DNA of 64,000 nucleotides from assembly GCA_030272155.1 (NCBI GenBank), contig CP126194.1, forward strand, positions 124,001 to 188,000. The letters run 5' to 3'. The stretch is from Tetradesmus obliquus (Eukaryota > Chlorophyta > Chlorophyceae > Sphaeropleales > Scenedesmaceae). The position numbers and the translations under genes are program-made. The notes below the pieces were generated by a model. That model saw only the letters and a list, made by a program, of their open reading frames with translations, was not told the DNA's origin and did no database searches. This document shows positions 781 to 5,584 of the stretch, one piece after another. Numbering within the stretch: the first letter of the stretch is position 1; each line of letters starts with the position of its first letter.

Positions 781-1267
781 GCAATCCTTCCGTACCGTTA
801 AATGCGCTCTAGTGCACACTGTGCCAGTACAAAGTCGCGCCAAGCTTTGCTTGAAGGTGCGCAGCTTTGCTTTTTTCATGCTAGACTGTCCATCTTTTCA
901 AAGTGGTGCCATACCCTGGGGTCATAAAGCGTTTCAGTGACATTCAACGTGCTGTTGCTGCTGCTGCTGCTATCACAGTGTGTACGGCATCGGCAGCAAG
1001 AGGTGTGGGCACTATGGCAGCCCTACATGCGAGTTGTGCGGTTCAGAGTACACGGTGTCACTACCCAGACTACCACGGACAAGAGGATCGAAGACCGTCA
1101 GTGCCGTTGCCCCCGAAGGGCATCGTGGCTCTTCGGGACGGCGCTGACCAGGTGTTGTTATGTTTGCAGGTAATGCTAGACAACATAGGAGCAGACGCAG
1201 GACCTGCACATGCTAATCTGAGGTTCAGCAGCCATGGTGGCCTTTCGGGGGACCACTTCTTGCCATC

Positions 1268-1988
1268 ACTAGGCACTGGTACGAAAGTAGCGCAAAGGCA
1301 GCATACTCATTGAATGCAACTTTCAACAACGAATCTAAATCAAATTGAGCCACTATATGGGGTGCTGTGTAACTTGAGTAAAGTGCTTGCAAACCACCTG
1401 CTGCGCCCCGACTCTTTGAATTTTCGCGGGTCTGTTATCTGCTGCTTTCTGCTGCTATAGGGCGCTGCTGCCTGCACATATGTATTCATGTAACCGGTTC
1501 TACTTCTGGGCAGCACTTGCTGGCTGATCAGGCTCTGCAGTTGTGGTGTGCCAAGTGCCCTGCCGCTGTTGTTGCGGTCTGCTGTCTGGCCCTGTACGTT
1601 GTGCGCTGCGCTGCTGCTGCTAATCTTGTTGCGGATCACCGATCGACGTTTCAGCATTACAGGCAGCTGCTGCGCGTGTGCAGCTAGGGTGGTTGAGCAC
1701 AGTTGGTTGAGTGCTGCCATTCCACACACTCTCCTGCAGACATTCATCTTGTGTGATCACGCTGAATTCTGGAGCTGAAAAGAACTAGCAGTTTGGAGCG
1801 GGCGCTGCAAGCAGGTGAGGTGCCTGCAGGACAGCTGACATGCAAGCAAACCAAGGCAGCAGGTTCAGCAGCTGTGCCTTGCTGTACCTACCACAAGCAG
1901 CAGGTTGCTGTGCCAGCATGGCTTTCTGTTTGTGTGCTATGTGGCTTTGTCTCATATCTGGGATGCTAGGTTCGTACCCTACCCCACT
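1268..1988. mobile_element. L segment, leftmost copy (721 bp, MITE-like)
   Basis: L begins ACTAGGCACTGGTACGAA and ends TTCGTACCCTACCCCACT. Its ends are imperfect inverted copies: with the neighbouring C or G included, 17 of 25 positions match, among them an intact GGTACGAA and an in-register TAGC. Both ends carry ACT. In this copy the left neighbour is unique flank (TTGCCAT) rather than a core, so the left end of L is seen in two contexts and looks like a true boundary. No transposase is encoded. A 135-codon minus-strand frame at 1340-1747 resembles nothing I know. It could be a non-autonomous DNA transposon or remnant flank DNA copied during amplification. The left end reads CACTA when the preceding C is counted, but the right end does not give the matching TAGTG, so I do not assign it to the CACTA superfamily. 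Confidence 0.55.
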
Positions 1989-2290
1989 GAAGGCAAAAAT
2001 GCACATCTTCCTTTGCTGCAGCAGTTCTCAGCCTGCATTGCAATCCTGCTGCTGCTGTTTCTGGGCAAAGTTGATGAATTGCCTGCCCACCTGTTTATGT
2101 TATAGCAGGCCTGCTGCAGCTGCTGCTGGTGGTGCAGCTGTCCCAAATCCTGCATTACTGTTGTTTGCAATTGCTGGGACCTGCCTGGCCAGCAGCACAT
2201 TCAGCAGCAGACAGCAGAGTGCAGCTCAGAGGAGGGTGCTGTCACCTGCTGTAGCCTCTGTTTTTCGAATGCACACTTTGCCAGGCAAGA

Positions 2291-2305
2291 CAGCAGCAGC
2301 AGCAG
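2291..2305. repeat. (CAG)5 microsatellite
   Basis: Five CAG units lie inside the low-complexity start of the core. The repeat number is the same in every unit. Confidence 0.85.
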
Positions 2306-2490
2306 CCTGGTGGTCATGCAGTGCTGCTGCTAAATTTTCAAAAGCACATTCAGAGCACAGCCTTGTCTTGAAAGACGTTTTAAAAGCAATCCGAATTGTC
2401 TGCTGTTGCTGCCGCAGCACGATCGAGCTGGCGTAGCCTGCACAGGTGTCTTGGACTCACTGGCTCCGTGACCAGGCTGGCTGCCCGGCG

Positions 2491-2522
2491 TCTTACCGGA
2501 GAAAATTCTCGGCCCAGTAAGA
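2491..2522. other. Interrupted hairpin
   Basis: Outer arms TCTTAC (2491-2496) and GTAAGA (2517-2522) are perfect inverted repeats. An inner GAGAA/TTCTC pair (2499-2503 and 2506-2510) sits around two A residues. It lies directly before a TGTAA motif. It could be part of a 3' end or a protein-binding palindrome. The function is unknown. Confidence 0.4.
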
Positions 2523-2527
2523 TGTAA
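2523..2527 (+). promoter_or_regulatory. TGTAA, possible algal poly(A) signal
   Basis: TGTAA is the common poly(A) signal of chlorophyte mRNAs. Here it follows the hairpin at 2491-2522 and would serve a plus-strand transcript arriving from the left, for example one running out of L or the preceding unit. Such a short motif also occurs by chance. Confidence 0.25.
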
Positions 2528-3060
2528 GAATCAGCTATTATGTATGAGGATAAGTTTGCAGCGTGACAGCTGTCTGCATCGAGAGTGGCTGATTCGGCAG
2601 CACTTCCCCGTCACGGATTACCTGACTCAAACACAGCTTTCTCCTGCCGTGCGTCAGCTCAATTTAATTCTTGAATAGATGTTATTACAATGCCAAGAGT
2701 GCAGCGACATCAATGCATCCTGCTTGGTAGGGCAACCGTTGAGACAAGTAACGTGTGGTTCAGTAGCTGGAGCTGCATGAAGCACATGTTAGCACGTACA
2801 ATAATTAATTTCAACCGTAACAAGTACAATCATTCACGCACATCGGCTCAACTCGCCTGCATGTGAACTGCCCATCAACAGCACTGCTGCCCTGGCAGAA
2901 CTGCCTTGCCACGCGCCCGCGCTTTTCACTCTGGGCCAGTCTATGCACCAATACACCATCTGACAATTATTATCAGATAACAATCTATCAACTAATCATG
3001 CCTGTGGCTGTCCATGCTGGCATACAGTTGAAAACAAAGACATAACCACCCAGCTACAGC

Positions 3061-4571
3061 ATGGCACCAGCACATCGCCGGCGCCGTGCGGTGCGCACAC
3101 ACAGGAGCCCAACCAGCAGAGGAGCTGTCAGAAAGGTGAGCTTGCAGGGAGTGTCAATCAACGACCTGCTGACAGCTGCTAGCTGTCTAGAGTGCAGCCA
3201 GCAGCCATATACATTCTAAGCCCTGCAGCAGCAGCAGCAGCGTGCTCAGCGCTGATCATCCCTAGGCCAGTTGCCAGCCGTACCCGTGCGCTGCTTGTTG
3301 TCACGGCATACAAACACCCTGTCCAGCCTGCTGCGCACCACATCCCACAAATCTGGCAGCCTCAGTGCATCAGCCATGACAGAGGCAGGTGTGATGTTCA
3401 TGAATGTGTCACGCAGCGTCCGCTGCAGATCACGCGGTGATACATCTGCACCAGTCAGCTGGTAGGTGTTGTACAGATGGTTACGGAAGCTAGCCTTGAG
3501 GCTGCCGAATGCATGCTCAATGGGCTGGTTGAAGTCTGGGGAGTAGGGTGCAATTTGCAGCACCTGCTCTGGGCTGATGCCAACTGCAGCTAGGAGCTCT
3601 GCGGCATCTTGCCCGACATGAACACTGGGGTTGTCGAAGATGTACAGCGGCGTAGTGCCGCGCGTGCGCTGCTGTTGGTTAGCCTTCTCTGCAAGCTCCT
3701 TCATGCAGTGGACAAACTCCAGCTGTGTCATGCTCTTGGCCTTCACGTTCTTCTTCTTCTTCTGCCTCTTCAACTGCAGGTGCAGGTTTTGCCGGGTTGG
3801 CAGCGGAAAGCCTTGTTAGCAGCAGCGCAGCTGAATGTGGATGTGCAAGTGGATGATAAGGGACGCCCATTCATCAGGCTTGAGGCAGATGGGAAAAGCA
3901 GGCCCAGGATCATCAGCTTGGGGATACGCAAGCGGCCACTGCACTGGGCCATGACGGGTTGCCTGCCAGGTGTGCAGCACTTCAAGTTCTGCGAGCCGCG
4001 CGCTGCCGCAACTGAAGCAGCTCTGGAGTGCAAGCAGTGTGCATGTTTGATGCCTAATGTGGGTGGCACAGGCGCACGCAACATGCCTGCAAGTGAGGAG
4101 CAGCTGATGCGCAAGCTGTACAGGTTGGGAATATGTGACAGCATGTGCGCGCAAGTGGCAGTAGGGTGGTGGCGAGGCCGGGTCGATTTCTTGCATGCGC
4201 AGCGCAGCGTGCTGATTCAAGCAGATGGGACATGCCATGACACTGGTATGTATGACAACAGCACAGAGAAGCTGTTGCAGCGCAACGTTGCCTTCTGTGC
4301 TGCTGCGTATGCCAAGTTCCTGCCAGCAGGCGGCAGTGTGCTGCGGGTGCGCACATGTGAAAGTGACTGGCAGGATTCCCTGGAGACTGGTTTCCAGCTT
4401 GCTGCTGGGGGTGGTGTCATTGTGCTGTCACCAAGCTACTCTGTTGTTATGGTCAGCGCAGGCCGCGGTGTGCAGCGCGCCTTCCCTGAGGCACTGCGAG
4501 ATGCACTGCCACGTTGTGTGTACACAGAACGCAACAGCTGGCATGTCCTTCAATGGCGCGCATCTAACTAA
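3061..4571 (+). CDS. Vsr/DUF559/EDxHD-like nuclease, spliced (unit 1)
   Basis: Exon 1 is 3061-3135 and exon 2 is 3780-4571, giving 288 aa. The ATG at 3061 is preceded by an in-frame TAA at 3043. Exon 1 encodes a basic leader (eight Arg in 25 residues, an RRRR run; possible nuclear localisation signal) ending AAG|GTGAGC. The acceptor CTGCAG|GTG restores phase 0. Exon 2 has a Cys cluster (C96, C109, C112, C114; possible zinc site). The nuclease core follows: acidic E131/E132 heading a helix, D161 in VDF, then IQADGTCHD with D174, H178 and D179, and LRV (R214). This order matches the Vsr-fold DUF559/EDxHD nucleases, except that Gln replaces the usual Glu of IExDG. Exon 2 lies antisense inside the transposase intron. 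Without splicing, the first in-frame ATG after 3780 is at 3951, inside the conserved region. Reading through the donor instead gives a 52-aa product stopping at 3217-3219. The biological role is unknown; homing or a transposition accessory role is possible. Confidence 0.7.
3226..3240. repeat. (CAG)5 microsatellite
   Basis: Five CAG units lie just downstream of the transposase stop codon (minus strand), inside the nuclease intron. Confidence 0.85.
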
Positions 4572-5467
4572 TAGCAGCACACACTCACATAGTATGGTGT
4601 GTTGGGGTTGCCAACGTGGTCAATGTTGTCTGTTGTGCCGGTGGTGAACTTGCAGTAGACAGCGCCGTGCACCGCGTTGACGGCGCACACAAAGTGTAGC
4701 TTGACTGGTTTGTTGTCCTGGCCCTTGCGCATCCACTTGCATGGTAGCACAGCATGTACGTTTGCATCATGTGCATCGCAATACACCTTGATGGCGCCGC
4801 CTGCTAGGTTGGACATCCAGAGTTTGCACTCATCAACAAAATAAATTCTGCTCAGCAAGTCTGGCTCATCCTGGAACATCTTGTAGAGCCTCTCTGCTGC
4901 AGCCTTTCTCCTGTCTTTCTGCTTGTCTGTCAGGTCCATCTTTACATCTATTCTTCTGCGCACCAGGTTGGGGTCGACAGCTTTCATGCGCTTCAGCAGT
5001 TGCTTGGGCCTGATGTTGTACTTCCTGCATAGGCCACCCAGGTACTCATTTTCCTGACAAGCAAGTTTGATTGATGTCCACCATACATGCACGTCGACTT
5101 TCTTCTTTGCTTCTGCACTTGGGTAGGCCTTGACTACCTTGCCAGCTTTGAATGTTTCACTGGCCTTTAATGCCACGTCATCTGGGACTTTTGGGGGTCT
5201 GCCCTTGTGCTTGGGAGTTGCCACCGTGCCATACTGCTTGAAGTTCTTGTAGTGGGTCATGCAGAAGGAATTCAGGTCCTGTTTGATTTGAGCAGCATGC
5301 TTAGGATAGTGTACTCTGTAATAGCCTGCCGCGCCCTTTGGACTGCCGGCGATGGCTAGCATCGTGAGCACCGCCACCACCGCCGCCACCCGCGCGCCCG
5401 TTGACTTGCGGTTGCTCTCCCATCCCAAAGGGTGCTTGCGCACCATGGACAGCCACCCTGCAGCCAT
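3246..5467 (-). CDS. Tc1/mariner/IS630-type DDE transposase, spliced (unit 1)
   Basis: Exon 1 is 5467-4589 (293 codons) and exon 2 is 3773-3246 (175 aa plus TGA), giving 468 aa. The start is the first ATG after an in-frame stop. The donor TAT|GTGAGT and acceptor CTGCAG|TTG join in phase 0. A CTAAC branch-point-like motif lies about 40 nt before the acceptor. Predicted domains: N-terminal DNA-binding region with a GRPPK (AT-hook-like) linker at residues 89-93; catalytic D212 in YFVDECKLW; a GTTD motif near 277; a Lys-rich run at the start of exon 2 (possible nuclear signal); D340 in IFDNPSVH; and E379 in YSPDFNQPIEH. These are the three catalytic positions of the superfamily, with 38 residues between D340 and E379 (DD38E spacing). 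Splicing is required: exon 1 alone ends six codons past the donor and lacks D340 and E379. The 815-bp intron carries nuclease exon 2 on the other strand. I see no inactivating change. Confidence 0.9.
3774..3779. other. Palindromic CTGCAG, 3' splice site for both genes
   Basis: On the plus strand CTGCAG is followed by GTG, the first codon of nuclease exon 2. On the minus strand the same six bases are followed by TTG, the first codon of transposase exon 2. Both joins are in phase 0. A plus-strand pyrimidine tract (3749-3773) precedes it, formed by the complement of the transposase lysine codons. Equivalent sites start at 7364, 10954, 15264, 18854, 22444, 26034, 30344, 33934, 37524, 41834, 46144, 49734, 54044, 58354 and 61944. 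A second plus-strand acceptor, GTGCAG|GTT, lies 6 nt downstream and would drop two residues. Confidence 0.65.
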
Positions 5468-5571
5468 GGATTCAAAACATATGCAGGCGTCAGCTGTGCT
5501 TCTGCTAGCAGTGCAAACAGAAATAACATGTCAGGTCAACCTAATGTTTGCAGCAACCTGGGGTTTGACCA

Positions 5572-5584
5572 GCCTTCTGAAGGC
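5572..5584. other. 13-bp palindromic core junction, W = T
   Basis: GCCTTC-T-GAAGGC joins core 1 to core 2. The same T form occurs at 9162, 20652, 24242, 35732, 60152 and 63742 (start positions). The two arms are the inverted 6-bp ends of the core, so the cores abut with a one-base spacer. Confidence 0.95.

Follow-up and report, generated by a model that had tools for sequence, protein, structure and literature searches.

A 64,000-nucleotide stretch of the genome of the green alga Tetradesmus obliquus (contig CP126194.1, positions 124,001 to 188,000 of the forward strand) was analyzed; it is referred to below as the window, and coordinates are window positions unless a contig is named. From position 1267 to its end the window is a tandem multimer of long terminal direct repeats (LTDR) and internal regions (INT) with 16 complete gene pairs, and the multimer continues to about 275.4 kb of the contig (C4). 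We consider it quite likely that the element, hereafter family A, is a composite-like DNA transposon of the form LTDR-INT-LTDR whose INT carries a spliced transposase gene and a spliced nuclease-like gene, reciprocally interlocked around one shared CTGCAG hexamer. The element is a variant of a known composite kind, and we found no earlier description of its interlock of two genes.

The nuclease-like gene lies on the plus strand. Its exon 1 (3061–3135, 25 codons) is the least certain part of the model and is followed by a predicted 644-bp intron (3136–3779, GTGAGC...CTGCAG) and by exon 2 (3780–4571, 263 codons and a stop). On the minus strand, transposase exon 1 (4589–5467, 293 codons) is followed by a predicted 815-bp intron (3774–4588, GTGAGT...CTGCAG) and by exon 2 (3246–3773). 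Joining 3061–3135 to 3780–4571 gives a nuclease-like product of 288 amino acids, and joining 5467–4589 to 3773–3246 on the minus strand gives a transposase of 468 amino acids, with no internal stop in either. The donors read AAAG/GTGAGC in the plus-strand gene and CTAT/GTGAGT in the minus-strand gene. No base belongs to both coding sequences, and the last exon of each gene lies wholly within the single intron of the other: transposase exon 2 in the nuclease intron, nuclease exon 2 in the transposase intron. Both predicted introns would end at the same palindrome, CTGCAG at 3774–3779, which would serve as the 3′ splice site of both genes when read on opposite strands. The exon coordinates, frames and splice dinucleotides of the original prediction, made from this DNA before our analysis, were reproduced exactly. 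That prediction also counted CTGCAG twice; both acceptors do read CTGCAG, and they are one hexamer seen from two strands. The shared palindromic acceptor and the location of the whole interval in the INT of a composite LTDR transposon are additions to it.

The joined frames of both genes are open in 16/16 units of the window, in agreement with the claim that the arrangement recurs in every unit. The units are identical over 3061–5577, and the sole differences in the interval compared are the junction bases 5578–5580. Identity to the base implies very recent spread or strong homogenization, so the array counts as one observation and adds no independent evidence. The units are also base-identical over the 1071 bp that precede the gene region.

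The acceptor alone proves little, since CTGCAG occurs eight times in the 3587-bp INT. Donor-like GTGAGY sequences are rare there, with two per strand: the plus strand has them at 3136 and 5364, and one of the two on the minus strand is the transposase donor. This rarity, together with survival of the layout at 73% DNA identity, places the arrangement beyond chance. The second line of evidence comes from a related family, family B, represented by a copy at C4:4321801–4326200 (L041); the genome searched comprised 104.7 Mb in 17 contigs. Over the gene region, where the 73% applies, family B retains all exons and their order, both ATG codons, both donors, the CTGCAG hexamer, the stop codons and the reading frames. 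Ratios of nonsynonymous to synonymous change (dN/dS) were calculated between the two families by Nei-Gojobori counts with 95% bootstrap limits. Transposase exon 1 gave 0.35 (0.25–0.48), transposase exon 2 gave 0.35 (0.22–0.54) and nuclease exon 2 gave 0.53 (0.38–0.71). These limits, all below 1, indicate purifying selection on each of the three exons. Alternative frames of the three long exons ranged from 0.83 to 1.72, with the exception of one antisense frame (−1) at 0.46–0.66. The reciprocal interleave that had been proposed is thus backed by conservation and selection in family B, a relative that keeps the exon order with the synonymous bias that the original prediction suggested looking for. 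Judged from the sequences, the anatomy is evolutionarily maintained.

The gene pair is present in many copies. The transposase exon 2 protein had at least 150 genome matches among 319 candidates, and the nuclease exon 2 protein at least 145 among 274. Patterns for the splice elements were drawn from families A and B and searched with up to three mismatches, the reversed pattern being the control. The plus-donor pattern had 281 matches, the minus-donor pattern 269, and the acceptor pattern (a 24-base context that takes in the opening bases of each second exon) 274; all three controls gave 0, and the matches listed had 0 mismatches throughout. A pattern for the LTDR ends of family B, of which each LTDR has two, had 361 matches and its control 0. 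We estimate about 270 copies in the genome, or roughly 1 Mb. Genome searches with proteins P0010, P0009 and P0018 returned nothing above 36, 36 and 59% identity, respectively, among the matches listed, and less common families may exist. A truncated copy at C6:5539301–5543300 (L042), with 87% DNA identity, is broken within transposase exon 1 and continues into unrelated sequence, in which we presume, from an impression only, a resemblance to retroelement gag.

The minus-strand gene is assigned as an IS630-Tc1-mariner-type transposase with a DDE_3 domain, to be made from a predicted spliced message. The PF13358 (DDE_3) match is confined to exon 2 (family A, E-value 1.2e-6, 28.9 bits against a cutoff of 28.6). 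The intron divides the DDE triad, with D212 in exon 1 and D340 and E379 in exon 2. There are 127 residues between the first and second D, with the intron within them, and 38 residues from the second D to E. The triad and the domain match uphold the earlier naming of this gene as a transposase. The mariner transposase domain of human SETMAR aligned in the correct order, to exon 1 near the first D and to exon 2 near the second; the alignment was weak (whole match E-value 0.096) and neither piece was significant alone. Exon 1 was also modeled by itself with AlphaFold (mean predicted local distance difference test score, pLDDT, 61.4). In the model the N-terminal part is helical and three strands follow from residue 209 on, with the D212 region at low confidence; with equally low confidence, it looks as would be expected of the N-terminal half of an RNase H fold. 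A Pfam scan of 12 members of the exon 1 profile (A2) found no transposase family, and no relative turned up when IMG/VR was scanned with the transposase and with profiles A1 and A2.

When the best 7998 candidates were scored, 11 database homologues of transposase exon 1 were obtained, 32–93% identical over the alignment. None reaches exon 2; they end 2–45 residues past the donor position. Directly after the last exon 1 residue all 11 have V (codon GTN), followed by S in ten and G in one. Since this V is present in homologues down to 32% identity, the transposase donor position probably predates the divergence of proteins that share a third of their residues. The transposase ATG lies 109 bp from the INT end, and its promoter may sit in the adjoining LTDR.

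The plus-strand protein can with fair likelihood be taken for a nuclease of the very-short-patch-repair (VSR)/DUF559-like type. It has 21 database homologues. Profile A1 retrieved 27 proteins, of which 21 had been known before, and no bridge to bacterial nucleases was among them; matches cover exon 2 only, except in the metagenomic protein P0029. DUF559 matched 14/21 members at an E-value of 1 or less (best 0.0018), and seven other families matched one or two members each. JGI annotates 7 of the 21 as very-short-patch-repair endonucleases. The motif GRVDF...QADG-CHD contains the invariant residues D136, Q147 and H153. No match was found in PDB by sequence, and NCBIfam gave one chance match in one member. 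A His-Me finger (His-Cys box) was absent among Pfam matches of the 21 members at the same threshold, the eight H/C positions not being compared singly.

P0029 starts with an exon-1-like stretch that reads straight through the donor, and 65 residues separate this start from the middle of exon 2, too short a gap for the 528-bp transposase exon 2 (the metagenomic contig could be chimeric). The original prediction held that neither gene can be lost without damage to the other. P0029 is consistent with this; the rule does not extend to point decay, for in L042 transposase exon 2 carries stops and nuclease exon 2 is still open.

Several results weigh against the spliced and interlocked arrangement. 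No protein spanning a junction was present among the 11 transposase and 21 nuclease database matches, so no transcript was seen, although a lack of this kind among database matches weighs neither for nor against splicing. Searching the genome with spliced-junction DNA patterns gave no processed or intronless copy: the plus pattern had two matches at three mismatches (control 0), neither resembling family A or B, and the minus pattern had 60 with one or two mismatches and none exact (control 25). An uninterrupted nuclease frame would have counted against the original prediction; these pattern searches gave no intronless copy, and all 11 transposase homologues end early. Missing transcripts and processed copies would suit an account in which nothing is spliced and four separate frames lie in a decaying satellite whose splice-like signals arose by chance. 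We hold this to be very improbable: it has to accommodate a DDE triad split over two frames, signals kept at 73% identity, a transposase donor position shared by homologues down to 32% identity, and selection on three exons. Further, 3′ untranslated ends may overlap the opposite gene, and mature mRNAs of the two genes need not lack complementarity.

Nuclease exon 1 is where doubt concentrates. Its dN/dS between families A and B was 0.65 (95% limits 0.25–1.67) over only 25 codons, and its other frames gave 0.51–1.05, three of them as low or lower (0.51–0.64). Since the other frames score alike, the A–B comparison by itself does not show this exon. An alternative is that the transposase is spliced as described while this exon is wrong, translation of the nuclease-like protein starting in an unspliced frame or at another exon. 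The plus frame is indeed open upstream of 3780 without splicing, with 320 amino acids from a TTG at 3609. The 51 codons of this upstream extension, however, have a dN/dS of 1.15 and their in-frame ATG is absent in family B, and the first methionines within exon 2 stand at 58 in family A and at 24 and 27 in family B. Exon 1 itself, with its ATG, length and GTGAGC donor, is common to families A and B and L042; its changes relative to L042 fall 4, 0 and 7 times on the three codon positions, avoiding the second; and P0029 has an exon-1-like start. We regard a wrong exon 1 as unlikely, and retain the two-exon nuclease-like gene.

The remaining points against the proposed arrangement concern the identities of the proteins. 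In family B the DDE_3 match (E-value 9.9e-5) is under the Pfam cutoff, that of family A is barely over it, and joining the exons raises the score in neither family. The window copy of the nuclease-like protein is under the DUF559 cutoff (E-value 0.19–0.22; 12.1 bits against 20.6). Its AlphaFold model is poor (pLDDT 52.6), and with this poor model Foldseek gave no match at an E-value of 0.001 or less. It also has Q where VSR/DUF559 proteins are known to carry E. The earlier label "nuclease" is plausible but weakly supported.

The first LTDR of the window (1267–1989, plus orientation) is 723 bp long and has imperfect inverted ends CA...TG; its bounds were taken from array, single-copy and array-end junctions. 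In family B the inverted ends are near-perfect over 25 bp. The LTDR is followed by the first INT (1990–5576), which contains both genes. On C16, a lone copy of family B has the structure LTDR-INT-LTDR. The array is preceded by CAT at 1264–1266, the left copy of a target site duplication; the right copy, again CAT, stands directly after the array's last LTDR (L045). A 3-bp duplication was present outside the outer LTDRs in 10/10 insertions with both ends read (CAT, GTG, GTA, ATC, TCA, TTG, GGT, AGC, TTT and TCT). These were the C4 array, the C16 copy, a C13 copy and seven single-looking copies, with most arrays outside the count, as well as L042 and L043, copies that are truncated or were read at fewer than two ends. 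Target duplications of 3 bp are known from the Zator superfamily.

Within the arrays some LTDRs are missing. At 5577–5579 the first INT is joined to the next by a CTG remnant in place of an LTDR, and other junctions have CAG. Among 33 INT ends in C4:104001–258000, 14 are followed by an LTDR, 10 by CTG and INT, and 9 by CAG and INT. Six further INT-INT junctions have CAG in four family B arrays, and CTG and CATG on C13. Because arrays are homogenized, the 19 INT-INT junctions on C4 do not count as so many separate events. As the LTDR begins with CA and ends with TG, all three remnants fit excision of an LTDR one or two bases in from its ends. The CAG and CTG remnants closely resemble the CAG/CTG footprint of Sleeping Beauty. 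Assembly gaps were considered as a source of the missing LTDRs and rejected, since 3–4-bp remnants recur on C3, C4, C5, C12, C13 and C14. Tandem Repeats Finder, with a longest period of 500, gave no match in the window.

A composite LTDR architecture is reported as unlike any other DNA transposon and from one animal Kolobok lineage, KolobokP, an animal composite transposon with LTDR-INT-LTDR structure, LTDR excision and an accessory His-Me nuclease (Kojima and Bao 2022, PMC9587614). In a literature search for LTDR elements, judged from listings, this was the only paper found (PMC9587614). The algal element shares with KolobokP an INT between two LTDRs that have their own short inverted ends (in single copies and at array ends), (LTDR-INT)n-LTDR multimers, outer target duplications, INT-INT junctions from lost LTDRs, and a DDD/E transposase with an accessory nuclease, only likely here, on the opposite strand. 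These likenesses, with a nuclease downstream of the transposase and target duplications of 3–4 or 4–5 bp there (PMC9587614), would suit a KolobokP family moved to another host. Such a transfer seems to us scarcely credible. The ends are CA...TG in both families A and B, whereas those of Kolobok are 5′-RR...YY-3′; the transposase has a DDE_3 match and a weak one to a mariner transposase; and the accessory protein is DUF559/VSR-like, with no His-Me match. At INT-INT junctions 3–4 bp of the LTDR ends are kept, whereas KolobokP loses 3–4 bp of INT at its tip, and KolobokP is listed from animal phyla only (PMC9587614). The algal element differs further in its IS630-Tc1-mariner-type transposase, in two genes predicted to be spliced and interlocked, and in its green-algal host. 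It works like KolobokP and yet departs from it in two defining traits, the ends and the type of nuclease; the likeness is probably convergent.

Relative to the IS630-Tc1-mariner group, for which DD34-41E/D spacing is given (PMC8533490), the DDE_3 domain and the distance from the second D to E are as expected. The short terminal-base remnants CTG, CAG and CATG, which we read as excision footprints, are comparable to the 2–4-bp footprints given for Tc1/mariner (PMC7913693). Unlike that group, the element has no TA or TA-containing target duplication as a rule among its ten triplets, and it has the composite LTDR layout, a second gene, and a long D1–D2 interval containing an intron.

From this anatomy we infer that both genes are spliced, that the plus-strand protein acts as a nuclease, that the remnants stem from LTDR excision, and how the arrays form. 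The genes are convergent with their tails crossed, the last exon of each in the other's intron. The transposase would bind the inverted LTDR ends and move LTDR-INT-LTDR with a 3-bp staggered cut of the target; it would also excise single LTDRs from arrays, leaving CAG or CTG. The nuclease may break LTDRs, and repair by unequal exchange between LTDRs would lengthen the arrays, as proposed for KolobokP. The C4 array has a target duplication outside its outermost LTDRs, consistent with an array that grew where it stands. The element would multiply through transposition plus tandem-array growth. We lean towards the view that a Tc1/mariner-type lineage independently evolved a KolobokP-style array-forming cycle with its genes locked around one hexamer; such a lock would keep the genes together through array recombination, would leave the coding parts of the opposite-strand messages without overlap, and may make expression of the two genes compete. 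Absence of coding overlap, genes tied together against deletion and pre-mRNAs forced to overlap would all be effects of the interlock, and the evidence favors none of them as its function.

Genes nested in introns, overlapping convergent gene pairs, and an exon of one gene in the intron of another on the opposite strand are all known. Here, unlike in those cases, the nesting is reciprocal, lies in a mobile element and involves introns that would share one palindromic 3′ splice site; a literature search for a reciprocally interleaved gene pair, judged by title, found none. The interlocked genes may offer a clean natural example of reciprocal nesting in which one splice acceptor works in both directions. 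With them it becomes testable how two convergent overlapping pre-mRNAs are spliced, and whether the overlap regulates a selfish element. The composite layout is here combined with another transposase and another accessory protein than in KolobokP, which suggests that direct repeats and a nuclease are a repeatable route to large homogeneous arrays.

Some further features of the element and its arrays were recorded. The contig begins with CCCTAAA, the plant-type telomere repeat. Upstream of nuclease exon 1, window positions 1990–3060 (about 1.07 kb) contain no convincing coding frame and are strongly diverged between the families, with about 44–68% identity by stretch; the LTDR is about 70% identical. 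At C4:222217–223662 (in L006) two LTDRs abut with no INT or spacer (...CCCCACTG/CACTAGG...), as if INT had been lost exactly. On C13, at about 1146–1151.5 kb (L079, L080), one INT is inverted in exact register, the distance from 1144425 to 1153039 being 2 × 4307. Both adjoining LTDRs share its orientation, and no spare bases occur at the junctions read, as if an entire LTDR-INT-LTDR had flipped in place. INTs in both orientations are also present in the arrays at C3 7158–7216 kb and near 4690 kb on C5.

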